Assembly (NCBI RefSeq): GCF_024347295.1 | Contig: NZ_AP025458.1 | Location: 372,001 to 436,000 of the forward strand | DNA from: Vibrio artabrorum | GTDB lineage: Bacteria > Pseudomonadota > Gammaproteobacteria > Enterobacterales > Vibrionaceae | Length of the DNA: 64,000 bases | Direction of reading: 5' to 3' | Shown: piece by piece, positions 16,398 through 53,026 of the stretch | Layout: every line of letters starts with the position of its first letter | Position numbering within the stretch: the first letter of the stretch is position 1 | The notes under the pieces: generated by a model | What the model saw: only the letters and a program-made list of their open reading frames with translations | Database searches by the model: none | What the model was told of the DNA's origin: nothing | Made by a program: the position numbers and the translations under genes

Positions 16398-16501
16398 GAA
16401 GTTGAACTATCCTGTGTTACTAGATGAAGGGTTGATCTAGTATCAATCCAATTAATAAAGCATTTTCCTTATGATAAAGGAAATATTAGCATTCAGCACC
16501 A

Positions 16502-16528
16502 TCAGACAGCTGTACTCAGATAAAATTC
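16502..16528 (-). promoter_or_regulatory. Possible sigma-E promoter for lptD
   Basis: Read on the minus strand: GAATTT, a 16-bp spacer, TCTGA. This resembles the sigma-E consensus (GAACTT / TCTGA). Control of lptD by envelope stress is known in E. coli; here it is inferred from a single near-match. Confidence 0.4.
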
Positions 16529-16546
16529 ATAGATAGAGAACACATA

Positions 16547-17401
16547 ATGCAAATATTTGGCAAAATTTTGGGCGCTTTTTTTGGCTTTTTATTTGGGAAC
16601 ATCCCCGGTTTAGTTTTGGGCCTTTTTCTCGGGCATCAATTCGATAAGGCTCGCCGTTTAAATCAGTCGGGCTTTAATAGCTCTGGTTTTGGGCGTGGAC
16701 CAAACCAAGCGGAAAAACAGAACGAGTTCTTTACATCAGCATTTGCAGTAATGGGGCACGTTGCTAAAGCCAAAGGGCAGGTTACCCGAGAAGAGATTCA
16801 GCTCGCTTCTACCATGATGGAGCGAATGAATTTGCATGGTGAGCAACGTAAAGCCGCGCAAGATGCATTTCGTGATGGTAAAGAGGGGGATTTCCCGTTA
16901 AATGATGTGCTTGAGCGTGTCAAGATTTCATCGGGGGGGCGCTTTGACTTGCTGCAGTTCTTTTTAGAGCTTCAAGTCTCTGCGGCATTTGCTGATGGCA
17001 GTTTACATCCGAGTGAGCGTCAGGTCTTACACAGGATAGCGCAAGGGCTTGGGTTTTCTGCGGAGCAACTAGAACGACGTTTGCAAATGCAAGAAGCCGC
17101 CTTCCGCTTTCAACAGCAGGGAGGGAGCTTTGGAGGCCATCAAGGCCATGGTCAATCATCAGGCTGGCAGCAAGCTTCGCAACAAAATCAATTGGCAGAT
17201 GCGTATAAAGTTATTGGTGTGAGTGAAAATTCGGATGGTAAAGAGGTGAAGAAAGCCTACCGTAAACTGATGAATGAACATCACCCAGACAAGTTGATGG
17301 CGAAGGGCTTACCACCCGAAATGATGAACGTCGCGAAAGAAAAATCACAAGAAATTCAAAATGCTTATGACCTCATTAAGAAGGTCAAAGGCTTTAAGTA
17401 G
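16547..17401 (+). CDS. djlA: Co-chaperone DjlA
   Basis: DjlA is an inner-membrane DnaJ-like protein that stimulates DnaK and influences envelope signalling. The 284-residue protein has a glycine-rich N-terminal membrane segment (about 6-30), a TerB-like helical domain (about 60-190), a glutamine/glycine-rich linker (about 191-215) and a C-terminal J domain with the HPD motif in NEHHPDKLM (about 250). It diverges from lptD, the same arrangement as in E. coli. Confidence 0.95.
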   Translation: MQIFGKILGAFFGFLFGNIPGLVLGLFLGHQFDKARRLNQSGFNSSGFGRGPNQAEKQNEFFTSAFAVMGHVAKAKGQVTREEIQLASTMMERMNLHGEQRKAAQDAFRDGKEGDFPLNDVLERVKISSGGRFDLLQFFLELQVSAAFADGSLHPSERQVLHRIAQGLGFSAEQLERRLQMQEAAFRFQQQGGSFGGHQGHGQSSGWQQASQQNQLADAYKVIGVSENSDGKEVKKAYRKLMNEHHPDKLMAKGLPPEMMNVAKEKSQEIQNAYDLIKKVKGFK

Positions 17402-17539
17402 TCGACCGTTTTGAGTGATCCTGATTGTCATCAGATATTCTTTCGATCTTCTAATTAGGAATCAACAGTCGTGTTAAAGCCCTATCGAGCAAGAGGCCAT
17501 TGGTTAATAAAAACTTTCGCTTCTTTTTTGTTAGGGACT

Positions 17540-18334
17540 TTAGCGTGAGCGTTCGTTTGCTTGATTGAGTGACCAATCGTAGTCATAGCTGATTTTGTGC
17601 GTATTCGTGACGGGTTGAGTGCGATACAGATCTAAGTGTTGAAGGAGTTGTTGCTCTGTACCAAAATCCACTGCAAACCATTGGTAAATCGATGACAGTT
17701 GGAGTTTATTATTGGTCACCAGAACACCTTTGTTACTGTTTACAAATTCACGAGCGGCTTGCTCTAACAAGGGTTCTGTATTGTCTGAGGTAAAAGCGTC
17801 AGGTTGTAAGTTAGGGCAACCTAGGCTGGCACAGTTCACTGCATAATGCGTACGAGGATCTTGCCAAATCGGTCTTAGGATTCGGTGTTCAATGTCGTTG
17901 AGTGTCAATGATTTCTCGTTAACGACTACCACATCATCTCCCCACGGCCCGAAACTAAATAGTCCGCCAAGTTTAGTGATGGATTTGATCGGGTAGGCAT
18001 CAAGAATCAAATCGACAGTCACAGCGTTGTATAGATTAACCCAATAGGCATACTGTTCTGCTTTTGAATAGTTGAGCGGATTAAGCTGTTCTAACCTCTT
18101 GATATAATGCTTCAGCTTTGCCTTGTCTTCAGTGCTTACCGCTTGATAACGAACGAGAGCGTTTTGTCCTTGTTTTACTCGGTAACGGTCGAGGAATTGC
18201 TGCCAATCTTGATGAGATATCTGTTCTTGGTGGATTTCGTTGCTTTGATTCCAATATGGCCAAAGTTCGGATTTCGGCGCAGACCACGCAAAGGTCGAGA
18301 AAAGTAGGCTGACAATTAAAAGTAGTGGTTTCAT
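17540..18334 (-). CDS. DUF547 domain periplasmic protein
   Basis: The 264-residue precursor has a signal peptide (1-18, ending AWS-A). Residues 70-230 form a DUF547 domain, recognised by YWVNLYNAVTVDLIL and HYAVNCASLGCPNL, which includes two cysteines that may be functional. The function of the family is unknown. It is a single gene, convergent with djlA, with no partner in the neighbourhood that explains its role. Confidence 0.8.
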   Translation of the reverse strand: MKPLLLIVSLLFSTFAWSAPKSELWPYWNQSNEIHQEQISHQDWQQFLDRYRVKQGQNALVRYQAVSTEDKAKLKHYIKRLEQLNPLNYSKAEQYAYWVNLYNAVTVDLILDAYPIKSITKLGGLFSFGPWGDDVVVVNEKSLTLNDIEHRILRPIWQDPRTHYAVNCASLGCPNLQPDAFTSDNTEPLLEQAAREFVNSNKGVLVTNNKLQLSSIYQWFAVDFGTEQQLLQHLDLYRTQPVTNTHKISYDYDWSLNQANERSR

Positions 18335-18440
18335 GGCATTCTCCTGCTGACTGACTACTAAGACCTTATGCTTTACGATTTTCTTTCATGGTTCTTCAGT
18401 TAAATTACAGAGTTAAGTCTAATCAATATATTCAGCTAAA

Positions 18441-18468
18441 TAAAAAAGGTTGGCACTGGCCAACCTTT
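18441..18468 (-). terminator. leu operon terminator
   Basis: AAAGGTTGG-CACTGG-CCAACCTTT followed on the minus strand by a run of T. It ends the leuABCD transcript after leuD. Confidence 0.88.
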
Positions 18469-18490
18469 AGATTTATTCAGAAATGTCTGA

Positions 18491-19093
18491 TTATTTTAGG
18501 AAGCTAGGAATCTTAGCTTCAAACTCTGAGATCTTATCGGCGTGTTGAAGTGTCAGGCCGATATTATCTAAACCATTCAGTAAGCAATGACGACGGAACT
18601 CATCAATTTCAAACGAGTACTCTTTGCCATTCGCGCTCACTTTCATTGCTTCTAGATCAACCGTGATTTCTGCACCGTCATTCGCTTCGACGAATTGGAA
18701 TAGCTCATCCACCTCTTGCTCAGTCAATCGAACTGGCACCATTTGGTTGTTGATCGAGTTACCGTAGAAGATGTCGGCAAAGCTAGGTGCAATCATTACT
18801 TGGATACCGTAATCGGCAAGCGCCCAAGGTGCGTGTTCACGAGATGAGCCACAACCGAAGTTTTCACGAGCGAGAAGAATCGAAGCGCCTTGGTAGCGAG
18901 CTTTGTTCATCACAAATTCAGGGTTTGGCTGTTGGCCTGCGTCATCAAGGAAGCGCCAGTCGTGGAACAAGTGCTTACCAAAACCGATGCGGTTTACTTT
19001 CTGTAGAAACTGCTTTGGGATGATCGCATCTGTATCGATGTTGGCCGTATCTAGAGGAACGACTAATCCGGTGTGTTGTTGAAAACCTGACAT
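18491..19093 (-). CDS. leuD: 3-isopropylmalate dehydratase small subunit
   Basis: With LeuC, this subunit isomerises 2-isopropylmalate to 3-isopropylmalate in leucine synthesis. The 200-residue protein shows the swivel-domain signatures [11 protein letters not shown] and [14 protein letters not shown]. It is the last gene of the operon, 14 bp after leuC. Confidence 0.97.
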
Positions 19094-39726: not shown

Positions 39727-40497
39727 ATGTCGAAACGAAACACTCAGCTCAGAAGACATGCAATTTCACAGCTAGTGAACGAAAAGGGGGAGGTTAGTGT
39801 TGATGAGTTATCCGCTAAATTCGAAACCTCTGAAGTCACTATTAGAAAGGATTTGGCGTCTTTGGAAACAAACGGTCAACTCTTACGCCGTTATGGTGGT
39901 GCGATTTCGTTACCGAAAGAAGTGGTCAACGAAGAGTTGGGTTATAAGGTTTCGAATCGAAAGGTTTTGTTGGCAAAAGCCGCTGCAGATTTAATTCGCG
40001 ACCATAACCGTATTGTGATCGATAGTGGTAGTACTACGGGGGCCCTAATTCAGCAGCTTAATGCCAAGCGTGGTTTGGTTGTTATGACCAACTCATTGCA
40101 CGTTGCGAATGCGCTTAATGAGCTTGAAAGTGAGCCGACGTTATTGATGACTGGCGGCACGTGGGATACCCATTCGGACTCTTTCCAAGGCAAAGTCGCA
40201 GAGTCAGTGTTGCGTGCTTACGATTTTGACCAACTATTTATTGGGGCTGATGGTATCGACCTTGATAGAGGCACAACCACGTTTAACGAACTGGTTGGCC
40301 TGAGCAAAGTAATGGCTGAAGTATCACGAGAAGTGATCGTGATGGTTGAGTCGGAAAAAGTGGGACGAAAGATCCCGAACTTAGAGCTGGCATGGGAACA
40401 CATTGACATCTTAATTACCGATACAGACTTGGGCGAAGAATCTAAAGCAAGTATCGAATCACATGATGTTCGCGTGATCCTGACTGATCCAGCGTAA
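39727..40497 (+). CDS. DeoR/GlpR-family sugar regulator
   Basis: The 256-residue protein has the N-terminal DeoR helix-turn-helix (about 6-60, GEVSVDELSAKFETSEVTIRKDLASLE) and a C-terminal sugar-phosphate sensor (DSGSTTGALIQQL, then GADGIDLDRGTTTFNE). It stands 107 bp upstream of glmS in the same direction, so control of amino-sugar synthesis by a hexosamine phosphate is plausible, but this is inferred from position. In Vibrio this regulator commonly accompanies glmS. Confidence 0.85.
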   Translation: MSKRNTQLRRHAISQLVNEKGEVSVDELSAKFETSEVTIRKDLASLETNGQLLRRYGGAISLPKEVVNEELGYKVSNRKVLLAKAAADLIRDHNRIVIDSGSTTGALIQQLNAKRGLVVMTNSLHVANALNELESEPTLLMTGGTWDTHSDSFQGKVAESVLRAYDFDQLFIGADGIDLDRGTTTFNELVGLSKVMAEVSREVIVMVESEKVGRKIPNLELAWEHIDILITDTDLGEESKASIESHDVRVILTDPA

Positions 40498-40604
40498 AAA
40501 CAAATTTAAATATTATGCATTTCCCTTCCTATAATTGATCTTAATAAAGATATGGCCTTTGCTTGCTGCCAATAGGAATAAAACAACATTGATGGAGTGA
40601 AACT

Positions 40605-42437
40605 ATGTGTGGAATTGTTGGTGCAGTAGCACAGCGTGACGTCGCCGAAATCTTGGTCGAAGGCCTTCGCCGTCTAGAATACCGTGGCTACGATTCAGCA
40701 GGTGTTGCTGTTGTTGATACCGAATCGAACCTAACTCGTGTGCGCCGCCTAGGTAAAGTACAAGAGCTCGCTGACGCGGTAGAAGAGCAACAGGTGATTG
40801 GCGGTACCGGTATTGCTCATACACGTTGGGCGACACACGGTGAACCGTCTGAAGCGAACGCACATCCACACATGTCGGGTGATATTGCCGTGGTACACAA
40901 TGGTATCATCGAAAACCACGAAGCACTGCGCGCTCTGCTGCAAGAACGTGGCTACGTGTTTACTTCACAAACGGATACCGAAGTGATTGCTCACTTAGTG
41001 GAGTGGGAACGTCGCACTTCAGCTTCTTTGCTTGAAGCGCTACAGAAAACGGCAAAACAGTTAGACGGTGCTTACGGTACGGTTGTTATTGATCGCAAAG
41101 ATCCTAGCCGTATTGTTGTGGCCCGTTCTGGTAGCCCTATTGTGATCGGTTTTGGCGTCGGTGAGAACTTTCTTGCCTCTGACCAGTTAGCGCTGCTAAA
41201 CGTCACTCGTCGCTTTATGTACCTAGAAGAGGGCGATGTGGCTGAAGTGACTCGTCGTGATGTAACGGTATTTGATAGTGTGGGTGAGCGTGTTGAGCGT
41301 GAAATTGTTGAATCAAACGTAGAACACGATGCCGGTGATAAAGGCCAATATCGTCACTTCATGCAGAAAGAGATCTTTGAGCAACCCACTGCGTTAATCA
41401 ACACGATGGAAGGTCGTATCTCTGACTCATCAGTTATCACTAACGCGATTGGCGTTAAAGCGGAAGCGATCCTAAGCAAGGTTGAACATGTGCAGATCAT
41501 CGCATGTGGTACGTCTTACAATTCAGGCATGGCAGCGCGTTACTGGTTTGAGTCTTTAGCTGGTGTAAGCTGTGATGTCGAGATCGCCTCTGAATTCCGC
41601 TATCGTGATTTCGTTGTTCGCCCGAATAGCCTACTGGTGACTCTGTCTCAGTCTGGGGAAACCGCGGATACGCTAGCTGCGCTTCGTCTTGCAAAAGAGA
41701 AGGGTTACATGTCAGCAATGACCATCTGTAACGTTGCGGGTTCTTCGCTGGTTCGTGAATCTGATTTTGCCTTCATGACTCGCGCAGGCACAGAGATCGG
41801 CGTGGCTTCGACGAAAGCTTTCACCACTCAACTCGCCGCAATGCTGATGATGGTCACGTCAATGGGTCGCCTACAAGGTCGCATCAATGAACAGAAAGAA
41901 GCAGAGATCGTTCAAGCACTTCATCAACTGCCTGCTGATATCGAGAAAGCACTCGCGTTTGACAAAGAGATAGAAGCGCTAGCACCCGATTTTGCTGATA
42001 AGCACCACACACTGTTCTTGGGGCGTGGTGAGTTCTACCCAATCGCAATGGAAGCATCTCTTAAACTGAAAGAGATCTCTTACATCCACGCAGAAGCATA
42101 CGCAGCGGGTGAGCTTAAGCATGGTCCTTTGGCGCTTATCGATGCCGATATGCCTGTGGTGGTTATTGCACCAAGCAACGACTTACTAGAGAAGCTGAAA
42201 TCGAACGTTGAAGAAGTACGTGCTCGTGGTGGACTACTTTACGTATTCGCTGATGAAGACGCTGGCTTTGAAAGTGATGAGAACATGAAGATCATCAAGA
42301 TGCCTCACGTTAGTGAGGTAATAGCACCTATCTACTACACCGTCCCGATGCAGCTGCTGTCTTATCATGTCGCGTTAATCAAAGGTACCGACGTTGACCA
42401 ACCTCGTAACCTTGCGAAAGCAGTAACGGTTGAGTAA
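40605..42437 (+). CDS. glmS: Glutamine--fructose-6-phosphate aminotransferase
   Basis: GlmS makes glucosamine 6-phosphate from fructose 6-phosphate and glutamine for cell-wall and LPS synthesis. The 610-residue protein begins MCGIVGAV, where Cys1 is the glutaminase nucleophile after Met removal. The two SIS isomerase domains follow ([19 protein letters not shown]), and the C-terminus ends [13 protein letters not shown]. The 3' end of this gene is the known recognition sequence of the Tn7 protein TnsD and is intact here. A Tn7-like terminus begins 25 bp downstream. Confidence 0.98.
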
Positions 42438-42470
42438 GTCTAGATTATCTGAGAAGTAGATTGTACGAGA

Positions 42471-42530
42471 GTATTAAAGTCTCATACTAAGTATTAAAGT
42501 GTCATACTAAGGGATAAAGTATCATACTAA
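42471..42530 (+). repeat. Three tandem 20-bp repeats (TnsB-like sites) in the right end
   Basis: The units GTATTAAAGTCTCATACTAA, GTATTAAAGTGTCATACTAA and GGGATAAAGTATCATACTAA lie head to tail without gaps. The invariant core is TAAAGT-N-TCATACTAA. From memory, the Tn7 right-end site contains ATAAAGTCTTAAACT; the first unit agrees with it in the same register from the TGT terminus. Confidence 0.8.
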
Positions 42531-42565
42531 AAAGGCAGCGAAGATTCGATCTCGCTGCCTTTTTG
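42531..42565. terminator. Terminator inside the right end of the island
   Basis: AAAGGCAGCG and CGCTGCCTTT form a 10-bp stem around a 12-base loop, followed by T residues. It now ends glmS transcription, because the presumed original glmS terminator is displaced to 51524. Confidence 0.8.
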
Positions 42566-42823
42566 CTGTTTGCTCTAGCGCGTTTTTGCCCCAAAACGTG
42601 TCATCTTGATTTGAGACCGGTGAATCCAGCAAGAATTTGCCCAATTTTTTCTAATGTCGGGCTAAGTTTGGGAAATGTTTTGGACAGGCGGTGCCTCTAA
42701 CTTAACCTCAGTTATCGAGTATAGTAATAGCTTAGGTTTAACTTAGACAATCAGTCCAAAAAAAACGCCCGCATCCACTGTGTCAGATTTAAGTACAAAT
42801 TAACAGGGACCACTTTTGAAACG
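42566..42823. other. Non-coding part of the island
   Basis: I see no gene in this 258-bp stretch and no recognisable fragment of tnsA, which in Tn7 begins just inside this end. Confidence 0.4.
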
Positions 42824-42847
42824 AAAAAAAGCCCCAATTGGGGCTTT
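42824..42847 (-). terminator. Terminator of the glucoside operon
   Basis: AAAGCCCC-AATT-GGGGCTTT followed on the minus strand by a T-run. It ends the operon after the Gfo/Idh/MocA gene. Confidence 0.85.
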
Positions 42848-42874
42848 GCTAAAACTGTTCGGGGGTAGGAGCAG

Positions 42875-43864
42875 TTATTTGGCGTCACAAGAGAAGGCAA
42901 TACCTGCACTTAATCGTGCCTGCTCGATGACGTTCATCACGGAAACCGAATGGTTTAGGTGTTGGTAACATTGTTCCAGATCCTGTTCTCGGAACAGACG
43001 CTCAAAGCCTTGAAACTCTTCGACCATGTGATTCTCATGATCAGCTTCATCAAACATTTCTGTATGGTCTCCGCACACAAACGTTACTCTTGGGCAGAAG
43101 TTTGTCGCTCCTTCAACCTTAATGTAGCCTTTCTCACCCTGAATAATGGCAAAGTTTGGGCTAGTTGAGTCTTTTGCTGCTGCACATGATGCGATGAAAC
43201 TAGGGTATTTAAGGGTGCAAATACCCGAAGTATCGATGCCGTTGTGCCCTTGATTCGCTAGGTAGTGCACATCGCTTGGCGTACCAAACAGCCCCATCAC
43301 AAAATGAATGTTGTAGACATTTAAATCGTACAGGGCACCACCTGATAGCTCAGGACTAAAAGCAGGAAGAACATTGCCGTCTTTGTACTGAGGGTAGCGA
43401 CTCGAAAACTGGGAGAAATTACACTGCACCAGTTTAATATCACCAAGCTCACCGATCTTTTCTTGAACATATCGGTAGTTTCTAAAGTGCAGCAGTGTGA
43501 TGGCTTCAAACAAGTACAAGCGCTTTTCCACTGCCATACTTGCCAACTCTCTACTTTCACTCGCTAACGATGTAAAAGGCTTCTCACAGATAACGTTCTT
43601 GTTTGCTTCAAGCGCTTTTTTGGTGAACGCATAATGCAGGCTATTGATGATACCAATATACACAGCATCGATTGATTCGTCAGCCAAGAAGTCATCGTAA
43701 TCGGTGTATACCGTTTCAATAGCGTATTTCTCAGCGAGCTCTTCTGCAATCTGGCGCTCTTTTTCAAGAACACAGATCGCAGACACAGTAATTTCATCAA
43801 TCTTCAGAAGTGCTTCTAAGCAGACTTTTACGATACCGCCTGCACCCACGATTCCAAGTTTCAT
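42875..43864 (-). CDS. Gfo/Idh/MocA-family oxidoreductase
   Basis: The 329-residue NAD(P)-dependent enzyme starts KLGIVGAGGIVKVCLEAL (Rossmann fold). It contains the family signature CEKPFTS (about 93-99) and the substrate-domain segment LSGGALYDLNVYNIHF. The start down from 43864 has GGAGAG upstream; the frame extends 57 bases further without support and would overlap the preceding gene. In sugar clusters such enzymes often oxidise or reduce a ring hydroxyl, for example making 3-keto sugars. It is the last gene of the operon, 13 bp after the MDR gene. Confidence 0.85.
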   Translation of the reverse strand: MKLGIVGAGGIVKVCLEALLKIDEITVSAICVLEKERQIAEELAEKYAIETVYTDYDDFLADESIDAVYIGIINSLHYAFTKKALEANKNVICEKPFTSLASESRELASMAVEKRLYLFEAITLLHFRNYRYVQEKIGELGDIKLVQCNFSQFSSRYPQYKDGNVLPAFSPELSGGALYDLNVYNIHFVMGLFGTPSDVHYLANQGHNGIDTSGICTLKYPSFIASCAAAKDSTSPNFAIIQGEKGYIKVEGATNFCPRVTFVCGDHTEMFDEADHENHMVEEFQGFERLFREQDLEQCYQHLNHSVSVMNVIEQARLSAGIAFSCDAK

Positions 43865-43877
43865 TATTGCTCTCCTG

Positions 43878-44897
43878 TTACAGCTGAGTCCAGTCGAATG
43901 CGACGCACTTGTAGTTATCACGATCTTCCATCAAGCCTTGATAGCCTTGCATTGCATCACGAGGAGACAGGATATGACTGATGTAGTCTTCTGCTTTCAA
44001 ACGACCATCTTTCAGACAATCGACGATGTACTGCATATTGCGCTCTACACACATGCGTGAGCCTTCTTGCTCGTAAAATGGATACAAACCATTGTATGCA
44101 CCCTTAACGGTCAACATGCGCATGTGAATGCGATTAAGAATGGCGGTAACATTACCTTGATGCTCGGCACGTGGAGAGCCGCTCAAAATCACCTGACCAT
44201 TGAATGCAGCACAGTTAACTGCAGTTTCGATCGCAGGCGATACCCCTGCGACATCGATGGCAATATCAACGCCGCGACCATTTGTTAACGCCATGACTTC
44301 AGATTCTTGATGCTCTGGTGCACAGCTAACAGCGTGCTGAATGCCGATTCTTTTCGCGTCTTCGGTACGAGAAGCGACAGGATCAATGGCAATGACTTTT
44401 GCACCGGCGAGTTGCAGAAGCTTTGCGGTAATAAGACCGATAGTGCCAAGCCCAAATACAGCCGCAGTGTCACCAAGTTTGATGTCAGCGATAGCAACAC
44501 CATTCATCGATATAGAGGCTAGGTAAACCAGAGCCGCTTGCTCCAAAGTCAGCTCTGGATCGACTTTAAGGATAAGCTCTAGATTGCGTCCGTTGTGCTC
44601 GAAACGTTGGAACTGTTTGTGAGGGCCGTTGAACATAACTCGGTCACCAATTTCGATGTCAGATAAGTCATCGCCTTTTTCAACGACTTCGCCAACGGAA
44701 ATATAGCCAGTGTAGAGCGGGTACTCGATACCTTTTTTAATACCATACACTCGAGATAGTTCAGTTCCGGCACTAATTAGTGACATCTCATTCTTAATGA
44801 TGGCTTCATTTGATTTTAGATTAGAGTCATCAAGTTGTTCATTTAATAGTTGTACGTCTTTTAAGCCAATAAGCTTTACGTTATATGTATCTCTCAT
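43878..44897 (-). CDS. MDR-superfamily dehydrogenase lacking the usual zinc ligands
   Basis: The 339-residue protein has the medium-chain dehydrogenase fold, with the NAD-binding motif GLGTIGLITAK at about 148-158. The N-terminal catalytic zinc cysteine of CGTD-type enzymes is replaced: the sequence reads SAGTELSRVYG. The GHE motif is replaced by TGYISVGEVV, and no structural-zinc cysteine cluster is present. It thus resembles the AGTE-type oxidoreductases found in unusual sugar or cyclitol metabolism. It lies between the PTS gene and the Gfo/Idh gene; the two redox enzymes may act in sequence on the sugar. Confidence 0.82.
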   Translation of the reverse strand: MRDTYNVKLIGLKDVQLLNEQLDDSNLKSNEAIIKNEMSLISAGTELSRVYGIKKGIEYPLYTGYISVGEVVEKGDDLSDIEIGDRVMFNGPHKQFQRFEHNGRNLELILKVDPELTLEQAALVYLASISMNGVAIADIKLGDTAAVFGLGTIGLITAKLLQLAGAKVIAIDPVASRTEDAKRIGIQHAVSCAPEHQESEVMALTNGRGVDIAIDVAGVSPAIETAVNCAAFNGQVILSGSPRAEHQGNVTAILNRIHMRMLTVKGAYNGLYPFYEQEGSRMCVERNMQYIVDCLKDGRLKAEDYISHILSPRDAMQGYQGLMEDRDNYKCVAFDWTQL

Positions 44898-44961
44898 AAC
44901 TTACCTCAAAAAATTTAAATTTTATAAGGGAGGAGGGTCTCCTCCCTGAAATTTGGATTGT

Positions 44962-46503
44962 CTAGGCTTCTAAACCTAACGCGTCACACATTTTCTCTTT
45001 ATAGGTTTCTACATGCATGCCAATGATAATTTGAACATTATTGCCATTAACAACGACGCCAGTTTGTTTACCTTTCTCTATCTCTAACTTATTAATTAAC
45101 TGTGGGTTTTTAACTTGAACACGTAATCGAGTAAAACAGTTTCCAACGGTTTCGATATTTTCTTGTCCACCTAAGCCAGCAATAAAGTGTTTCACATCTG
45201 AATTGTCGCTGACGGCACTTTTAATTACGTCCTCATTGGAGACTTCTTGGTCTTGGAATATGTCGATATTTCTCTTTTTAATGATCCATACTGTTGGCAA
45301 ATACCATAGTGGCATCATCAAAATACCGATCAATACAGTGAAGTGAGCCTTCGTTAAACTTAACGGCATCGCAATATTGGTAATAATCAGGTCAATAATA
45401 CCATTTGGCATATAAGTGCTAACGCCAAGCATGTAGGTAATACTGTCTGCAATACCGCCAACAAGTCCGTAGATAAACCAGATTGATGGTGCAATGAAGA
45501 TGTATAAGAAGTGTAATGGCTCAAGAATACCCGTACCTACCGCTACCGCTAAGCTCGGAATAATGATGCTCTTAGCGTAGGCTTTCTTCTCTTTGGGTGC
45601 AGTGCGGATAAAAGCAGCTGCGATAGCTAAAGAACCAAACACTTTAGTCAGACCGAAGCTCACATACTTAATCGATGGATCTAGCTTTGTGATCTCATTC
45701 GCATGCGACATCTCAGCAAGGAAGATGGTTTGCGCACCATGAATCACTTCGCCGCCAACCTCTGCAGTACCGCCTAGAGGTGTGTAGAAGAAGGACATCC
45801 ATAACGGGTGATGTAGACCTGTTGGGATTAGCCAGAAGTTCCATGCGGTGTAGTTAAAGATTCCGAACACACCTGAAGTCTCAATCAACGAAGCTAAGCT
45901 GTTGATTATATTGTTCATCGGTGGCCAGAAGTAACATGCAGAGATAGCAAGTACAGCGGTAATTGGAATCATTAGAATAAATACAAAGCGAGAGCCTTCA
46001 TAGATTCTAAAATACGCACCAAACGTCAAGCCTTGGTATTTATTATGCAACCAACCGACTAAGATCCCCATTAGCATGCCGAGAATAACGCCCATGTCGA
46101 CAACTTGGAAACCGAGTACCATTGTTTGACCAGTACCGTATAAACCAGCGATACCTTTTTCTGCTAACATATTGTTATTAGTCAGATAAGTATTGTTGGC
46201 AACCAAAAAGAATAGGAATGATATAAGCGCGGTTATAGCAGCATCAACCTTTTTCTTTTGTGCAAGTGCTGCAGCCAAACCCATACAAAATATAATTGGA
46301 AGATTGCCAAGCATCCCAAACATCATTGACATAATCATGTCGCCGATAGAAATAATGAAGCTAGGCATAAACTCCATTCTCATAATTGCCGCAACAGCCA
46401 TTGCTGTACCCATTACGGCAATAAAAAGAATAACCTGTATCGCTGCTCTGGAGAACTTTTGCGTCGCCTCCTTGACATTGTATCGTAGGGCAGAGGTATT
46501 CAT
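44962..46503 (-). CDS. PTS transporter EIIBC, alpha-glucoside type
   Basis: The 513-residue inner-membrane permease takes up and phosphorylates a sugar. An EIIC domain with about ten helices fills residues 20-420 (FWLIPTGLHHPLWMSFF and GILEPLHFLYIF are typical of the glucose/maltose class). A linker and the EIIB domain follow, with the phosphorylated cysteine in GNCFTRLRVQV (about residue 456). EIIA is absent and must come from elsewhere, as is common for this class. AAGGATAA precedes the ATG. It lies 13 bp downstream of the GH4 gene. Pairing with a GH4 6-phospho-alpha-glucosidase points to maltose-like or sucrose-isomer substrates. Confidence 0.88.
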   Translation of the reverse strand: MNTSALRYNVKEATQKFSRAAIQVILFIAVMGTAMAVAAIMRMEFMPSFIISIGDMIMSMMFGMLGNLPIIFCMGLAAALAQKKKVDAAITALISFLFFLVANNTYLTNNNMLAEKGIAGLYGTGQTMVLGFQVVDMGVILGMLMGILVGWLHNKYQGLTFGAYFRIYEGSRFVFILMIPITAVLAISACYFWPPMNNIINSLASLIETSGVFGIFNYTAWNFWLIPTGLHHPLWMSFFYTPLGGTAEVGGEVIHGAQTIFLAEMSHANEITKLDPSIKYVSFGLTKVFGSLAIAAAFIRTAPKEKKAYAKSIIIPSLAVAVGTGILEPLHFLYIFIAPSIWFIYGLVGGIADSITYMLGVSTYMPNGIIDLIITNIAMPLSLTKAHFTVLIGILMMPLWYLPTVWIIKKRNIDIFQDQEVSNEDVIKSAVSDNSDVKHFIAGLGGQENIETVGNCFTRLRVQVKNPQLINKLEIEKGKQTGVVVNGNNVQIIIGMHVETYKEKMCDALGLEA

Positions 46504-46516
46504 TTTATTATCCTTG

Positions 46517-47845
46517 TTACTTATTAAACTGAGGTAAATAACGTCTGTTTTCTTCAAGAATGTCTTCAACGATCGCTTTCGCCTTGGGTACATTGACCAC
46601 AGTGCGGTTTAAAGTGAGGGCGTTGATGAGTTTTTGCTTGCTACCTTCATACCAAGCGTCAACCACGAGCTTTTCGTAGCCGAGCTGGCTTTCAATCATG
46701 GCTTTTTGGAATGTTGGTATCTTACCGACGCTTAGAGCTTTCGGCCCACTGCTCGTTAGCAAGCTTGGGACTTCAACCATCGCGTCTTCTTGAATATTTG
46801 AGATAGCTCCGTTATTTGGAACAATGACTAGGTAGGTTTCGTACAAATTGTAAGCAAGAGATGCTGCGACTCGAACCATGTAACGACCATGAATATCAGC
46901 GTGTAGCTCTTCTTGAGCCGTGCTGTTGGCGGAAATGACGCGCTGGCAAAGGTCAAAGACACGTTTTTCTCGCCCATTAATGACCTGGCGTGCACGCGTA
47001 TTGTTGATGTCCTCTTTCGCGGCCATTTTTTCAGGGTACAGATAGTACTGTAGGTAGGTGTTTGGTAGGTACTCTGGGTTGTCACGAAGCATCGTTTGCA
47101 TGTTCTTAAACGTTGCTTGCCATGATGGGTCATTGACGATTTCAGAATCTACCGCTTTGATACCCTCATTAAGAATCACGTCCTTAATACGGTTTGTAAG
47201 ATCTTTACCATGTCGGTTTTTAATGCCGGTAAACCAGCCGTAATGGTTGAGTCCGAAGTACTCAGGGACTAGATCCCAGATCTCGCAGCCAAGGATTTGA
47301 GCATAGCTGACCATAATAGCCGCAGGCATATCACAGATATTGAGGATCTTTTTATCTGTCGGGAATTCACGATTGAGAGCCTCTGCTACGATCGCTGCAG
47401 GATTTGTGTAGTTCAGGATCCATGCGTCTGGACACTGTTTTCGGATATCGTTGATGATTTCAATCATGTCACCGATTGAGCGAAGACCATAAGCCATGCC
47501 ACCTGGACCACAGGTCTCTTGGCCAACACAACCGTGCGCAAGAGGGATTTGCTCATCACGCTCACGCATTTGTAAGCCGCCGCTACGGATTTGGATGAAG
47601 AAAAAGTCGCTATCTTTGAATGCTTCTTCTTTGTTTGTGGTGTAGTGAAACTCTTCTACTTCTGGGTAACGTTCTTTTAATAGGATCTTTGTCGCTTCGG
47701 CGTTAAGTGCCTGACGTTCTGCATCAGTATCATAAAAAGTGATCTTTTTTAGCGGAAATGTCTCTTTTTCAGCGATCAAACTCATGATCATACCGATAGT
47801 GTATGTGCTGCCAGCGCCTACGATAGTAAGGTTTTGTTTCTTCAT
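46517..47845 (-). CDS. GH4 family 6-phospho-alpha-glucosidase
   Basis: The 442-residue protein belongs to glycoside hydrolase family 4, which cleaves by an NAD- and Mn-dependent redox mechanism at C3. It starts NLTIVGAGSTYTIGMIMSL (NAD site). The metal ligands are expected in NICDMP (cysteine, about residue 170) and GLNHYGWF (histidine, about 202). The CGPGGMAYGLRSIGDM segment is like that of GlvA, MalH and AglB proteins, so phosphorylated alpha-glucosides are the likely substrates. I start it down from 47845 with AGG upstream. It is the first gene of the operon. Confidence 0.87.
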   Translation of the reverse strand: MKKQNLTIVGAGSTYTIGMIMSLIAEKETFPLKKITFYDTDAERQALNAEATKILLKERYPEVEEFHYTTNKEEAFKDSDFFFIQIRSGGLQMRERDEQIPLAHGCVGQETCGPGGMAYGLRSIGDMIEIINDIRKQCPDAWILNYTNPAAIVAEALNREFPTDKKILNICDMPAAIMVSYAQILGCEIWDLVPEYFGLNHYGWFTGIKNRHGKDLTNRIKDVILNEGIKAVDSEIVNDPSWQATFKNMQTMLRDNPEYLPNTYLQYYLYPEKMAAKEDINNTRARQVINGREKRVFDLCQRVISANSTAQEELHADIHGRYMVRVAASLAYNLYETYLVIVPNNGAISNIQEDAMVEVPSLLTSSGPKALSVGKIPTFQKAMIESQLGYEKLVVDAWYEGSKQKLINALTLNRTVVNVPKAKAIVEDILEENRRYLPQFNK

Positions 47846-48052
47846 TTCTGAACCTATTGGATGTCGATTAAGTACGTTAAATGTATTCTTTAAGTGGATA
47901 CATTTAAAGTACATTTAAAAGCGCAAGTTCAAAAAACAACCCTAGATCACATAAATATATGCATTTATAGATTGGTAACGGCTATATGTACTCTTTGTTG
48001 AATCAAAAGTACTATTAATGTATTCTTTGGGGAAATTCAACGAGGCGATATC
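47846..48052. promoter_or_regulatory. Operator region of the glucoside operon and its GntR regulator
   Basis: A dyad AAATGTAT-N11-ATACATTT lies at 47879-47905. The 12-mer AATGTATTCTTT occurs twice exactly (47880-47891 and 48017-48028), with a variant ATGTACTCTTT at 47986-47996 and an inverted AAAGTACAT at 47906-47914. One set is near each start codon, fitting repression of both genes by the adjacent regulator. A CRP half site (TAGATCACATAAA) is near 47943-47955. Confidence 0.6.
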
Positions 48053-48778
48053 ATGAGTAAACACCTCTACATTAGAGTTTCGGAAGTACTAGAACAAAGA
48101 ATTGCCGATAAAACCTATCCTCGGGATTCGTTATTACCTACCGAACAAGAGCTGCAAGAAGAGTTTGGCGTAAGCCGAGCGACCATTAGAAACGCGATGA
48201 AGATGCTAGTTGAAAAAGACCTCGTCCATCGAGTGCGTGGTGATGGCACTTACATCAAATCGGTTAAGACGCAGCATGATGCATTGAGTCACTCTGGGTT
48301 TACGGAAGAAGTTGAGCTGCAGGGCGGTAAGGCTTCAACTCGTATACTTTCATTTCAACTTCAAGAAGCAGACGAATATGTGGCGCAAAAACTGGATGTC
48401 GTGGCAGGCGATCAAGTCTATTTCATTAAGCGTATTCGAATGATTAATGATGTGCCTGAGGTGTTAGAGCACAGCTATATGCCTTTTGCGTTGTTCCCAG
48501 ACTTGTCTGTAGAAACGATTCAAAACTCGAAATACCAATATATCGAGCATAAACTTGGTCATAAAATCAAACACAGCCGAGAAAAAGTGTACGCAGAAGG
48601 TATATCTGCAGAGGATTCAAAGCCTTTGAAGCTGAAAAGCGGTACTCCAACATTGTGTGTAGAAACGATTGGTGTACTTGAAGATGGTACTATCTTTGAC
48701 TTTGCCATTAATCGATTTAGTTTGAAGCAGTATTCTTTCGAATATACATCTCCACGAAGTAAAATTATTCAGCAGTAA
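48053..48778 (+). CDS. GntR/HutC-type regulator with UTRA domain
   Basis: The 241-residue protein has an N-terminal GntR winged helix (about 5-70: LPTEQELQEEFGVSRATIRN) and a C-terminal UTRA effector domain (about 90-235), which binds small molecules such as sugar phosphates. It diverges from the GH4-PTS operon and is probably its local repressor, induced by the phosphorylated substrate; similar to TreR and related regulators of PTS sugars. Confidence 0.88.
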   Translation: MSKHLYIRVSEVLEQRIADKTYPRDSLLPTEQELQEEFGVSRATIRNAMKMLVEKDLVHRVRGDGTYIKSVKTQHDALSHSGFTEEVELQGGKASTRILSFQLQEADEYVAQKLDVVAGDQVYFIKRIRMINDVPEVLEHSYMPFALFPDLSVETIQNSKYQYIEHKLGHKIKHSREKVYAEGISAEDSKPLKLKSGTPTLCVETIGVLEDGTIFDFAINRFSLKQYSFEYTSPRSKIIQQ

Positions 48779-48847
48779 TAACCGTTTTAATGTAGTGGCT
48801 GAGTGATTTTGGCCACTCGAATTGAAGTGATCTGTACCATCAATACC

Positions 48848-48931
48848 GGACACTAAGCGAGGTGATTTTCCATACCTTTTAATAAGTCATGCTTTGCTTA
48901 ATTAGCTATCTTGCTAAAACGGAAGTGTCCA
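48848..48931. repeat. Probable IS3-type remnant with both ends
   Basis: GGACACTAAGCGAGGTGA at 48848 resembles the left end plus leader of the intact IS3 element (TGGACACT ... GAGGTGA). GTGTCCA at 48925-48931 matches its right terminus. The ends are only 84 bp apart, so the body is deleted, or this is a miniature derivative. Confidence 0.45.
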
Positions 48932-49085
48932 GAGACTTGATGGCGGGGTATGAAACACGAAAATGCCCCAAACCGTTTTAGAGAGCACCTTCTTTTCGAT
49001 AAGACAGGTTAATGGGCTTAGATTTGATTCACCTTAATAACCCGCATATTATTGACTACCAAGGATAAAATCAGTCGAGTAAATT

Positions 49086-50282
49086 ATGGATTTTGGAAAA
49101 TATAAAGAAACAAGGCATCTCAAGCCTCTCCAAATACCTAATAAGGAACAACTACTTCTCGATGTGTCCAACATTGAAGACAGCTTCACAGGAAGGTCTG
49201 ACGCTAGTATTGCAAACACCTTCATCTTTGAAGCAAGTCATCTGATTGTTAATGCTCTTGCTTTGTTCGAACTGGGATATTTTGATTGTGCGTTCTACTC
49301 TCTGCGTCAGTCATTAGAAGCCGCAATGACGATGATGTATCTCTATGATTCCGAGGAAGATGTTAGAAAAAAAGAGCTAGAGAAATGGAGAACCGAACAA
49401 CATTTTCCAATGTATGCAGGTATGACTAAATACTTGGAATCGAATGAGAGCGAATTTAAGGATATCAAAAGCAAACTTTCAGCATTTTTTGAAGAAACAG
49501 AGAAAGTTAAAAAGCGTCTCAATAAGTACGTCCACAAACAGGGCTTTGATAAGTTATACGCTAGTAGAAATAACCCATTAAGTCGAATCAAAGGCAAGTT
49601 TGATGATGTCGAGTTTATTAATGAATTTGACGGATATGTTGTGAGCTGTATTGGAACTGTAGCAGTAATGAGGTTAGCGATAGATCCAATGCCTGTGCTA
49701 CTCAACGATGAAGAGATCTACGCTAGAACTGGCGACACAATTACTTATCCATACTCTGATGAGTTTATTGAAAAATACATCGGTTTTGATGCAATTGAGA
49801 AGTACAAGCGAACATCAATGTATACACAGCACTACGACAATTTTATGCAAGAAGAGAAGCAAAATGAAGCCGTAAGCTGTGTGATCAAAGACAAGTTTGT
49901 TGATGTAAGAAGAGCAGATGAAATTCTAAATCAAGGTCATCTTTTGCCACAAGCTGCATTACTAGGTGTTATTGCTCTCGAAAATATTGAGAGTGTAACC
50001 AAGTTTTATACTTGCGGAGGATTTATGATGTACTTCTCAAATAGAGATTCGCTCAGACAGAAGCTTGAGTGGGACTCTCGGCAATTTAATAATTTTCTGG
50101 AAACAAATCCTAGCACTAATCAACCATTTGATGAGGTGTTCATATCAGCATTCAAGCTACCAGAAGGTGAGATTTTCCTTGAGCATAATCAAGAAATTAC
50201 GGCAAACGACATTTACAATATTGAACATATTATCGGCTCATTTGAGAATGATCCGCACCAAAAGTTTTGGACACTGAGTTAA
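49086..50282 (+). CDS. Protein of unknown function, 3' end replaced by an IS
   Basis: The 398-residue frame has no signal peptide or membrane helix. The N-terminal half looks all-helical (FDCAFYSLRQSLEAAMTMMYL, about 75-95) and contains RLNKYVH (about 139-145), which fits the Rx4-6H pattern of HEPN nucleases; this is a suggestion, not an assignment. The C-terminal half is of unknown fold. The IS3 left end begins exactly at codon 395, so the last four residues (WTLS) and the stop codon come from the IS; the natural C-terminus is lost. No clear ribosome site precedes the ATG (AAGGAT is about 20 bases away). It lies between two IS ends inside the island. Confidence 0.6.
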   Translation: MDFGKYKETRHLKPLQIPNKEQLLLDVSNIEDSFTGRSDASIANTFIFEASHLIVNALALFELGYFDCAFYSLRQSLEAAMTMMYLYDSEEDVRKKELEKWRTEQHFPMYAGMTKYLESNESEFKDIKSKLSAFFEETEKVKKRLNKYVHKQGFDKLYASRNNPLSRIKGKFDDVEFINEFDGYVVSCIGTVAVMRLAIDPMPVLLNDEEIYARTGDTITYPYSDEFIEKYIGFDAIEKYKRTSMYTQHYDNFMQEEKQNEAVSCVIKDKFVDVRRADEILNQGHLLPQAALLGVIALENIESVTKFYTCGGFMMYFSNRDSLRQKLEWDSRQFNNFLETNPSTNQPFDEVFISAFKLPEGEIFLEHNQEITANDIYNIEHIIGSFENDPHQKFWTLS

Positions 50283-50310
50283 GTGAGTACAATCACTAAC
50301 GAGGTGAACA

Positions 50311-50595
50311 ATGACAACTAAGAAAATACGAATCAAACATGCTCCTGAATTTAAAGCTGAAGCACTTAAGTTAGCAGAGAAAGTGGGGGTCGCTGCGGCT
50401 GCACGGCAGCTATCGTTATATGAATCCCAGATCTATGGATGGCGTAAAGCCGTCAAAAAAGACGCGAAAGTCAGTGATAGAGAAAGAGAGCTCGCCACCG
50501 AAAATGCCAAACTCAAACGATTATTGGCAGAGCAAGCTGAAGAGCTAGATATCGTAAAAAAGGCCGCCACCTACTTCGCGAAAAATCTAAAGTAG
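50311..50595 (+). CDS. IS3-family transposase OrfA
   Basis: This 94-residue protein has a helix-turn-helix (about 8-50: HAPEFKAEALKLAEKVGVAAAARQL) followed by a leucine zipper-like coiled coil (about 55-90), the usual OrfA layout. GAGGTGA precedes the ATG. The sequence A AAA AAG at 50556-50562, in the zero frame, is the standard -1 slippery site. The -1 frame is open from there into OrfB, so a fused OrfAB transposase is expected. Confidence 0.92.
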   Translation: MTTKKIRIKHAPEFKAEALKLAEKVGVAAAARQLSLYESQIYGWRKAVKKDAKVSDRERELATENAKLKRLLAEQAEELDIVKKAATYFAKNLK

Positions 50596-50609
50596 ATTGC
50601 TATGAGTTT

Positions 50610-51461
50610 ATGCTCAAACACCTTATGCAATATAGGATTGTCCGTATGGCTAAGGTGTTTGGGGTTTCTCGAAGTGGGTTTTATTACTGGATTGATAATC
50701 GCAATAAAGTCACTCAACGAAACGAGCACCGCAAGCAACTTGATATCAAAGTTCGCGAAGTCTTTGATGATAAAAAGGAACGTGATGGTGCAAGGCGTAT
50801 TCAAAAAGAACTTGAAGAAAATGGTAATAAGCACGATGTAAAAACCATCGCCGCGAGCATGAAGCGTCAGGGACTCGTTGCGAAGGCCGCCCGTAAGTTC
50901 AAAAGCACGACAGACAGTAAGCATAGGCTTCCCGTTGCCCCGAACTTGCTTGACCAAGACTTTAATGCGACAGCCCCAAATCAAAAATGGGCTGGAGATA
51001 TCACCTATCTCGCGACTAGCGAAGGCTGGATGTATTTAGCTGTTATTATCGACCTGTATTCACGGCAAGTCGTTGGTTGGTCAATGAGTACAAGAATGAC
51101 CGCAACTCTTGTCTGTGATGCGCTATCAATGGCTTTGTTCCGCAGAGGCATGCCAGAAGGAATGATTATCCATAGTGATAGAGGCAGCCAATATTGCTCA
51201 AAAGACTACCGAGACTTAATCGCAGCTCATAATTTAAAACAAAGTATGAGTAGGAAGGGAAATTGCTGGGATAACGCCTGTGTTGAAAGCTTTTTCCACA
51301 CAATGAAAGTAGAAGCCATCCAATACGAGCCGATAATGACGCGAGAAGAGATGCGCCAAGCGCTTTTTGAATATATCGAAGTTGATTATAATCGAACAAG
51401 AAGGCACAGTGCTCTTGGGTATCTAAGCCCAGTTAACTTTGAAAAACAATATGTCGCTTAA
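50610..51461 (+). CDS. IS3-family transposase OrfB (DDE catalytic part)
   Basis: OrfB has 283 residues if read from its own ATG, and is in the -1 frame relative to OrfA. It has an HTH_21 segment (VFDDKKERDGARRIQKEL) and an rve integrase core with the three acidic residues visible: D in WAGDITYL, D in IHSDRGSQY and E in NACVESFFHTMK. The frame is intact, so the element may still be active. It is normally made as a frameshift fusion with OrfA. Confidence 0.93.
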   Translation: MLKHLMQYRIVRMAKVFGVSRSGFYYWIDNRNKVTQRNEHRKQLDIKVREVFDDKKERDGARRIQKELEENGNKHDVKTIAASMKRQGLVAKAARKFKSTTDSKHRLPVAPNLLDQDFNATAPNQKWAGDITYLATSEGWMYLAVIIDLYSRQVVGWSMSTRMTATLVCDALSMALFRRGMPEGMIIHSDRGSQYCSKDYRDLIAAHNLKQSMSRKGNCWDNACVESFFHTMKVEAIQYEPIMTREEMRQALFEYIEVDYNRTRRHSALGYLSPVNFEKQYVA

Positions 51462-51490
51462 TGCGGTGTCCAGTCTGACTGGAGCAGATC

Positions 51491-51514
51491 ATGGGACTTT
51501 ATTACTCGTGTACA
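51491..51514 (-). repeat. Left terminal repeat of the Tn7-like island
   Basis: Read inward it begins TGTACACGAGTAATAAAGTC and continues CCAT. It agrees with the right terminus at 20 of 24 positions, including the AATAAAGTC-like core of the TnsB-type site. Only 42 bp of this end remain before the IS3 element, so further sites may have been lost. Confidence 0.7.
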
Positions 51515-51523
51515 AGATAATAG

Positions 51524-51550
51524 AAAGCCCATCTCGTGATGGGCTTTTTG
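51524..51550. terminator. Terminator, probably the original glmS terminator
   Basis: AAAGCCCATC-TCGT-GATGGGCTTT followed by TT on the plus strand. With the island removed it would lie about 40 bases after the glmS stop codon. It also serves metY from the other side. Confidence 0.8.
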
Positions 51551-51577
51551 TGTCTGTAGCTTAAAGCAGTGGCGTCA

Positions 51578-52846
51578 TTAAGCGCTCAGTGCTTGCTCTA
51601 GGTCAGCCAAGATATCGTCAATGTGTTCAATACCTACTGAGAGGCGAATCATCTCTGGTGATACACCGGCTTGTTTTTGTTCAGCTTCGCTTAGTTGACG
51701 GTGTGTCGTCGAAGCAGGGTGACAAGCGAGAGATTTCGCATCACCAATGTTGACCAAGCGTTTGAAGATTTGCAGTGCATCGTAAAAACGAACCCCGGCT
51801 TCGTAACCATCTTTTAAGCCAAAAGATAAAATCGCAGATGGTTTACCCTGCATGTACTTTTCGGCGAGTGGGTAGAATTCTGAATCAGGTAGGCCAGCGT
51901 AACTCACCCAACTGACTTTCTCGTGTTGCTTAAGGTATTCCGCTACTTTCAAGGCGTTCTCTGTGTGTCGCTCCATACGCAGCGATAGCGTCTCCAAACC
52001 TTGCATCAGCATGAAAGCATTCATGGGTGACAGTGCAGCACCTGTATTGCGTAGGGGAACGGTTCTAGCACGACCAATAAACGCAGCCTCACCAAAGGCC
52101 TCGGTATACACCACACCATGGTAAGAAGGCTCTGGCTGATTAAATACAGGGAAGCGGTCCTTGTGCTGTGCCCATGGGAATTTGCCTGAATCGACAATCA
52201 CGCCACCTAACGTTGTACCGTGACCACCCACGTATTTGGTTAGTGAATGCACCACGATGTCGGCCCCAAAATCGATAGGTTTACACAGCACGGGTGTGGC
52301 CACCGTGTTATCGACAATCACAGGCACACCTTGTGCGTGAGCAAGTTCTGCAACACGCTCTAAGTCGATAATATTACCTGCTGGGTTACCAATACTTTCA
52401 CAGTAAACCGCCTTGGTTTTTTCATCGATCAGCGCTGCTAAGCTTTCTGGTTTGTCATCTTTAGCAAAGCGAACTTCAATCCCTTGGTTTGGCAGCATGT
52501 GAGCAAATAGAGTGTAAGTACCGCCGTAAAGCTGAGGTGTTGAAACTATGTTGTCACCGATTTGAGCCAATGTTTGAATCGCATAGTTGATTGCTGCACT
52601 GCCCGCACTCACGACCAAACCAGCAATCCCACCTTCTAAGGCAGCCATACGTTTTTCTAGCACATCATTGGTTGGGTTCATTATGCGAGTGTAGATATTA
52701 CCTGGTACCGCAAGGTTGAAGAGGTCAGCACCGTGTTGTGCATCATCGAATTCGTAAGCAACGGTTTGGTAGATTGGTGTGGCAACCGATTTGGTTGTTG
52801 GATCAGTTTCGTAACCGAAGTGAATCGAGAGTGTTTCGTCTTTCAT
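51578..52846 (-). CDS. metY: O-acetylhomoserine aminocarboxypropyltransferase
   Basis: This PLP-dependent enzyme uses sulfide and O-acetylhomoserine to form homocysteine (direct sulfhydrylation), and some members also show cysteine synthase activity. At 422 residues it is typical of MetY, longer than MetB or MetC. The PLP lysine is in HSLTKYVGGHG (about residue 207), and ALEGGIAGLVVSAGSAA and IVDNTVATP are cofactor-binding segments. It is monocistronic and convergent with the island. Confidence 0.92.
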   Translation of the reverse strand: MKDETLSIHFGYETDPTTKSVATPIYQTVAYEFDDAQHGADLFNLAVPGNIYTRIMNPTNDVLEKRMAALEGGIAGLVVSAGSAAINYAIQTLAQIGDNIVSTPQLYGGTYTLFAHMLPNQGIEVRFAKDDKPESLAALIDEKTKAVYCESIGNPAGNIIDLERVAELAHAQGVPVIVDNTVATPVLCKPIDFGADIVVHSLTKYVGGHGTTLGGVIVDSGKFPWAQHKDRFPVFNQPEPSYHGVVYTEAFGEAAFIGRARTVPLRNTGAALSPMNAFMLMQGLETLSLRMERHTENALKVAEYLKQHEKVSWVSYAGLPDSEFYPLAEKYMQGKPSAILSFGLKDGYEAGVRFYDALQIFKRLVNIGDAKSLACHPASTTHRQLSEAEQKQAGVSPEMIRLSVGIEHIDDILADLEQALSA

Positions 52847-52989
52847 GAGTCTTCCCTGAACGATTGAATAGTCTGTGTACTTTTATATTGCCGATTTTTT
52901 TATAAAAGAAAAGCATCTTTAGTCAAATAGAGGGAACTCGATGAGAGAGTCAGATCGTTGATCGAGAAGGTGCAGAGCTAGAAAAGCAA

Positions 52990-53026
52990 AAAGCCAGAGC
53001 AGTGTAAACTGTTCTGGCTTTTCTAA
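52990..53026 (-). terminator. tRNA-Ile2 terminator
   Basis: AAAGCCAGA and TCTGGCTTT form the stem with an inner CAG/CTG pair, followed on the minus strand by T residues, directly after the tRNA. Confidence 0.8.

Follow-up and report, generated by a model that had tools for sequence, protein, structure and literature searches.

The glmS locus of Vibrio artabrorum raises the question of how a 9-kb segment that is bounded like a Tn7 transposon, and in which no Tn7 transposition gene was found, came to occupy the attachment site of this transposon family (attTn7). The segment, referred to here as the island, spans positions 42462–51514 of the 64-kb stretch of V. artabrorum DNA that was analyzed (the window, to which all positions refer unless a locus is named). 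Other genomes and loci are denoted by G and L, respectively, followed by a number. An initial annotation, based on the letters of the window, had described the island as a decayed or non-autonomous Tn7-type element. Our sequence comparisons support this interpretation, as relatives possess empty sites with these borders and the ends are not genome-wide repeats.

Borders of the insertion behind glmS

The stop codon of glmS is located at 42435–42437, and the first base of the terminal TGT, at 42462, is the 25th base past it, in agreement with the initial annotation. Among the 29 best relatives by glmS 3′ DNA, 19 have an uninterrupted site (...TAGATAA..AAGCCCAT..) and run through TAGATAA into the terminator that is found at 51524 in the window. 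Seventeen of these empty sites were recognized by pattern match, whereas L011 is one base off the pattern and L013 was read directly. The remaining ten relatives comprise nine with a different intergenic region and one (L023) in which the site is occupied by a similar end. Because the uninterrupted site in the relatives has exactly these borders, the insertion corresponds to 42462–51514. It is flanked by TAGAT on the left and AGAT(A) on the right, a target duplication of four of five bases that is one short of the expected 5 bp.

Ends and transposition genes

The glmS-proximal (right) end contains three contiguous 20-bp direct repeats (42470–42529), which are predicted to be TnsB-type sites. 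With a 20-bp site matrix they scored 28.9, 28.3, and 25.2 bits, compared to 15.8 bits for the best background match in the 64 kb; this matrix was derived from 16 sites, among them near-end sites 1 and 2 of the island, so that the near scores are somewhat inflated. The array is present in a single copy in the V. artabrorum genome, and scattered single matches with two to three mismatches numbered six, versus three for a control. The far terminus, which closes in ACA at 51514, matches the near terminus in inverted orientation at 20 of 24 bases, as first reported, and no other position on either strand of the window matches as well (runner-up, 17 of 24). On its own, the far-end site scored 15.6 bits with the same matrix and is thus at background level; it is backed by the 20/24 match, by the border, and by its agreement at 23 of 24 bases with the left end of a V. 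thalassae element. The expectation of multiple TnsB sites per end consequently held for the near end, with three sites, and failed for the far end, where one weak site is followed by an IS3-family insertion sequence (IS) and the three spaced left-end sites of Tn7-type elements are not present. The most similar right end is located at glmS in G104 (92.4% identity over 132 nt), followed by that of V. thalassae, with 84.5% identity across 116 nt and 89% across the best-matching 95 nt.

A tblastn search with TnsA–E detected no tns gene inside the island, as anticipated, and the sole match in the window was a weak one to TnsC (E = 0.097) outside the island. A profile search of the V. artabrorum genome found no TnsB of the island's family; this profile was positive in three of three control genomes, whose TnsB proteins are part of the profile, and also in G149, which is outside it. 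Pfam searches of the genome for TnsA, TnsC, and TniQ yielded no match, which is a weak negative as the controls were silent too, and TnsE was not searched for genome-wide. Judged by its gene content, the island is not an autonomous Tn7-type transposon today.

A hairpin behind the right end

A terminator-like hairpin with perfect 13-bp arms directly follows the third right-end site (Table 1). Its predicted folding energy was −21.9 kcal/mol, compared to −7.3 ± 2.5 kcal/mol for mononucleotide shuffles and −22.5 kcal/mol for the displaced native glmS terminator. This value was obtained by direct folding; the hairpin was not among the plus-strand results of a terminator scan, and Rfam returned nothing at the gathering threshold within 40400–53000. 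Conservation was assessed on 29 right ends collected with a pattern that included the left arm, so that conservation of this arm is partly selected whereas the right arm was free. Comparison of the 15 distinct arm pairs showed five invariant positions out of 12 and an outermost pair that was often broken; one position switched between T-A (nine pairs) and A-T (four, the island included) and was unpaired in two. The hairpin is not universal, as the element at L042 lacks it and L082 passes from the sites directly into other sequence. With right-end sites followed by a hairpin and no TnsA–E homolog inside, the island fits the group of elements without tns genes (tns-less elements) described below. 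Because the insertion moved the native terminator 9 kb away, the right end may have brought a replacement terminator for glmS. The common hairpin hints at a way in which insertion of an element behind an essential gene could proceed without depriving this gene of its terminator.

Table 1 Features of the island and its flanks in the window.
Feature	Position	Strand	Remarks
glmS	40605–42437	+	open reading frame; 3′ end is the attTn7 recognition gene; anchor for the comparison of relatives
TAGAT, left copy of target duplication	42457–42461		uninterrupted TAGATAA site in relatives
Right (glmS-proximal) end	42462–42529	+	TGT and three contiguous 20-bp TnsB-type sites (predicted) at 42470, 42490, 42510
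Terminator-like hairpin	42529–42564	+	AAAAAGGCAGCGA/TCGCTGCCTTTTT; also present in most tns-less and in the closest autonomous members
Operon module	42823–48777		93.2% identity (5,961 aligned positions) with a locus of the Vibrio genome G058 other than glmS
GFO/IDH/MocA-family oxidoreductase	42875–43864	−	PF01408
Zinc-type alcohol dehydrogenase family protein	43878–44897	−	PF00107
Phosphotransferase system (PTS) EIIBC, maltose/glucose type	44962–46503	−	PF02378, PF00367; under NCBIfam cut-offs
Family 4 glycoside hydrolase (GH4)	46517–47845	−	PF02056, PF11975
GntR/UTRA regulator, probably of the operon	48053–48778	+	PF07702, PF00392
398-aa protein of unknown function	49086–50282	+	last codons contributed by IS3
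IS3-family IS	50268–51472	+	ends TGGACAC/GTGTCCA; orfA 50311–50595, orfB 50610–51461
Left-end remnant	51473–51514	−	terminal site alone, closing in ACA; expected sites 2 and 3 absent
AGAT, right copy of target duplication	51515–51518		four of five bases
Original glmS terminator	51524–51547		pushed 9 kb off by the insertion

Related elements in other genomes and plasmids

In other gammaproteobacteria, right ends of the island's type are found both on autonomous elements with TnsABCDE and on elements without tns genes. A search of public genomes (one per species) with the right-end array pattern yielded 63 loci, with the end of glmS beside the array in 41 and a TnsA homolog in 31, often ~100 bp from the right end; other loci share a conserved hairpin and contain neither tnsA nor tnsB within the ≤8 kb examined. 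The pattern scan of viral contigs returned seven stretches. Within the genus, the site-plus-hairpin signature (up to two mismatches) was found in 47 of 148 genomes and a reversed control pattern in five. The signature lies within ~110 bp of glmS in 15 of the 147 genomes with a glmS match, the window genome included (positions compared by hand). A TnsB of this family at E ≤ 1e-100 is encoded by ten of the 148 genomes, not including the window genome, and by two of the 15, namely G013 (the G149 genome) and G088. For six glmS-sited Vibrio members (L195, L196, L197, L198, L200, and L203), no left end was found at 17 bits in the ~18 kb read, which suggests that decay at the glmS site may be common. 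The plasmid search with the near end retrieved 32 records; among the 20 listed, the 19 after a V. maritimus match cover only the first 165 query bases, which represent the right-end region. Five plasmid records were examined, and all have three contiguous 20-bp units, with one unit being degenerate in P. rettgeri and Acinetobacter. On a V. gangliei plasmid (L039, 20001–22377) a right end of the island's type adjoins an integron integrase and qnrVC7, and no left end was identified.

The autonomous member G149 encodes TnsA, B, C, D, and E according to Pfam, with TnsB recognized by its Mu-type C-terminal domain and the profile. All five proteins are also encoded by G088, G041, and pPp47, a conjugative plasmid of Proteus penneri, and are 85–95% identical to those of G149. 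Complete autonomous elements are 24,351 bp long in G149 (duplication AATTT) and 28,513 bp in pPp47 (CTAGG). In G149, G088, and pPp47, 9–18 kb of cargo separates the right end from tnsA, and tnsE is within ~3 kb of the left end in G149, pPp47, and G041, of which only the part starting 2.8 kb ahead of tnsA and reaching the left end was available. The same gene order was observed in G088, for which no left end was found. A lone site directly upstream of tnsA in G088, G041, and pPp47 suggests that the cargo was inserted into an older right end. In pPp47, caspase-family and TIR-domain genes are located between tnsE and the left end (L204, 2484–3852). According to the accessible text of two reports, TnsE steers Tn7 to conjugating plasmids and replication structures (PMC10293859, PMC11406308), and such targeting could explain the plasmid-borne members.

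Twelve tns-less elements of 0.7–11.5 kb are complete at both ends and flanked by a perfect 5-bp duplication (Table 2), and tblastn with TnsA–E of G149 detected no homolog in any of them. Three (L130, L120, and L122) offered two possible TGT starts, of which the one giving a duplication was chosen; L116 and L127 are without a terminal site and were not scored for duplication. Left-end sites are positioned at 0, +66, and +121 in nine of the 12 elements and within one base of this in the autonomous G149, G041, and pPp47. The others have sites at 0 and +110 (L122), at 0 and +122 (L042), or the terminal site only at the thresholds used (the pP9014 element). Because the tns-less elements have perfect duplications, we infer that they were mobilized in trans by TnsABC with TnsD or TnsE. 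The island resembles these seemingly helper-dependent elements, which reside on chromosomes and plasmids of marine bacteria. Their observed cargo includes restriction-modification genes, a PD-(D/E)XK nuclease, and a beta-lactamase-like gene; the latter, of 282 aa, is shared by L128 (550–1398) and the pP9014 element, with the first 50 residues being identical. On a Shewanella khirikhana plasmid (L206), an autonomous-type element has its annotated tnsD interrupted by a tns-less one; no matching duplication was found for the outer, autonomous-type element. G084 element 1 provides a direct precedent for the island, being a tns-less element behind glmS in another Vibrio with ATTGT present twice. 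G084 carries two tandem elements behind glmS (L202, 7100–17860), with a 5-bp duplication plus two further bases between them, and no left end was found for the outer element. In G141 (L199, 574–2835), the right end at glmS is opposed, at a distance of ~2.2 kb, by a pair of left-end-like sites spaced 55 bp apart, with no TnsA–E homolog there. This locus may represent another tns-less insertion at glmS whose left terminus is damaged.

Table 2 Tns-less elements with both ends and a perfect 5-bp duplication.
Element	Length (bp)	Duplication
L130	11,509	TCATG
L117	3,029	ATAAC
L118	2,426	GCTTA
L119	3,676	TTAAG
L120	2,285	CCAAG
L122	2,369	GTATC
L128 (V. gangliei plasmid)	1,480	TGAGT
pP9014 element (NC_012919, Photobacterium plasmid)	5,778	ATCGT
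L121 (V. thalassae)	5,715	CAAGG
L042	729	AGAAT
L206 inner (16282–19032)	2,751	TGTGC
G084 element 1 (at glmS)	10,631	ATTGT

Close helpers were rarely found together with such ends. Eighteen genomes with an island-type right end, drawn from the 63-locus pattern scan, included one with a TnsB above 1,000 bits (G149, itself an autonomous member), seven with weaker TnsB homologs (43 to 689 bits), and ten with none at E ≤ 0.001. No TnsB was present in any of the five right-end plasmids checked. Among 230 plasmids with a TnsB homolog (E ≤ 1e-50), pPp47 was >95% identical and the other 229 were <60% identical.

Cargo of the island and the IS3 insertion

The initial annotation had predicted a metabolic cargo with a possible defence gene. 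The first part applies, as most genes form a PTS/GH4 operon (Table 1), whereas the second found no support, with PADLOC returning 0 families. In G058 the matching operon is located on contig C39, where no site of 17 bits was present in the 18 kb read. The glmS segment of G058 is 81% identical to the window, against 93.2% for the operon, which points to horizontal transfer. The occurrence of the same genes without such a border at a different locus speaks for acquisition and not against the border. GH4 and GntR relatives were also found near glmS in G053 (L123), G127, and G034 (loci L185, L186, and L123 in total), and among these only G053 has a right end of the island's kind. The V. maritimus plasmid match was considered as a donor and rejected, as it extends over a portion of the GFO gene (with the annotation "hypothetical protein") and no donor element was seen.

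The four nearest relatives of the 398-aa protein are 387–393 aa long and 84–88% identical. The protein belongs to no family in PADLOC, Pfam, or NCBIfam, some of its homologs are annotated with PF18928 in the protein database, and among 227 genus genomes no homolog besides its own was detected at E ≤ 1e-40. Its gene is terminated by the IS3 element, which the initial annotation had overlooked, and which leaves 42 bp of the left transposon end and shows no target duplication. Left-end sites 2 and 3 were probably lost beside this element. As one weak far-end site was left by IS3, the island is probably stranded and immobile now. A short stretch at 48846–48930 has two IS3-like ends (GGACAC...GTGTCC) and is perhaps a relic.

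Origin of the island

The course of events to which we assign a probability of about 50% is that an element already devoid of tns genes, with ends of the TnsABCDE family, was inserted at attTn7 by TnsABC and TnsD from elsewhere. It would have carried the PTS/GH4 sugar operon and the 398-aa gene, and its right end would have supplied the replacement glmS terminator. Later, an IS3 copy at the left end would have removed TnsB sites two and three. The V. thalassae element supports this scenario, being similar to the island at both ends, tns-less, and flanked by CAAGG twice. Further support comes from the ends, the three sites, and the border of the island, from the lack of a TnsB match of this family in its own genome, from the twelve elements of Table 2 (among them G084 element 1 and the one inside a tnsD), and from the common spacing of left-end sites in tns-less and autonomous members. 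Several observations weigh against it. The left end of the island is cut approximately where the nearest autonomous members keep tnsABCDE, which makes a loss in place nearly as likely. In G104, which has the closest right end, tnsC and tnsD are still present together with a split tnsE, and an IS3-like element occupies the place expected for tnsAB. Furthermore, the duplication of the island is one base short, and complete tns-less ends at glmS occur in G084 alone, with G141 and G150 having partial left ends. A resident helper does not explain the tns-less members (one of 18 genomes, none of five plasmids), and only one of the 230 plasmids with a TnsB homolog exceeds 60% identity. As a close TnsB is so rarely resident, transient helpers or a loss of helper genes must be assumed.

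We give slightly less than an even chance to the arrival of an autonomous TnsABCDE element with cargo between its right end and tnsA, followed by an IS3-mediated adjacent deletion that took tnsABCDE together with left-end sites 2 and 3. The position of tnsE close to the left end in the nearest autonomous members, the location of the island's IS3 on the left-end side without target duplication, and the IS3-like element that replaces tnsAB in G104 are consistent with such a deletion. However, no tns fragment is left in the island, the deletion must have stopped at the 398-aa gene, which is nearly complete up to IS3, and the V. thalassae element, which resembles the island at its two ends, has an intact duplication and no tns genes. 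Because the tns genes may have been lost in place, transport of the island by TnsABCD from elsewhere, as initially proposed, is possible only. It is improbable that the two ends stem from separate insertion events at this position, such as those of stacked Tn7-type elements whose inner ends were lost. Tandem insertion at glmS does exist, as illustrated by the two successive right ends in G084, and the duplication of the island is off by one base, but the common TGTAC termini and the empty site require one event only, and the single V. thalassae element resembles both ends. Chance similarity or ordinary intergenic repeats next to a metabolic island that never transposed would match the background-level score of the far-end site (15.6 versus 15.8 bits). 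This explanation has a negligible probability given the three contiguous sites, the array beside glmS in 41 of the 63 public loci, the empty sites at the same point, and the single array copy in the genome.

A putative class of Tn7 satellites

Decayed islands at attTn7 are known in general, and Tn7 biology has mostly been described from elements with their own transposition genes. On balance, our comparisons lean toward the existence of a widespread class of Tn7 satellites, which would be tns-less, share a common right-end module and spaced left-end sites, and be moved in trans, with the island as a stranded member. The module would consist of contiguous TnsB-type sites, usually with a terminator hairpin, while TnsABC and TnsD would direct these elements to glmS, and TnsE or another selector to plasmids and elsewhere. 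Satellites would arise easily because their parents hold cargo between the right end and tnsA. If this is true, part of the Tn7-mediated gene traffic has gone uncounted, including chromosomal and plasmid-borne cargo of the restriction, metabolic, and beta-lactamase-like types, and autonomous Tn7-type elements are helpers with their own parasites. According to its accessible parts, a survey of Tn7 cargo sought ends within 125 kb of a tnsB (PMC8649781), and tns-less elements far from any tnsB would be missed by this approach. A literature search of titles and abstract openings, with most subscription papers outside its coverage, found no description of a non-autonomous Tn7-type (satellite) family.

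Comparison with known systems

The island resembles Tn7 and its glmS-targeting TnsABCDE relatives in its TGT/ACA ends, its clustered right-end sites, and the position of the right end ~25 bp past the glmS stop codon. Intact relatives have 5-bp duplications and TnsABCDE, whereas in the island no tns genes were found and the left end has one site. G149 and pPp47, the nearest autonomous relatives for which the two ends were both identified, have their cargo between the right end and tnsA. CRISPR-associated Tn7-like transposons have Tn7-type ends in common with the island; no cas gene was found among the eight island proteins scanned, and no search aimed at CRISPR arrays was made. A remnant in Acinetobacter variabilis is likewise Tn7-family DNA at glmS, and the available part of its description attributes the loss of the other end to an IS-mediated deletion (PMC12904642). 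This remnant kept its tns genes and lost one end, whereas the island kept its outermost ends and is without tns genes. As far as the accessible text on them extends, the nearest analogue is the TIME family of Tn3-derived miniature elements (PMC4133298). TIMEs are also non-autonomous, have the ends of an autonomous family, carry varied passengers, occur on plasmids, and generate duplications of 5–6 bp. They differ in using ends and transposase of the Tn3 family, whereas the elements described here have asymmetric Tn7-type ends, with attTn7 as one of their targets.

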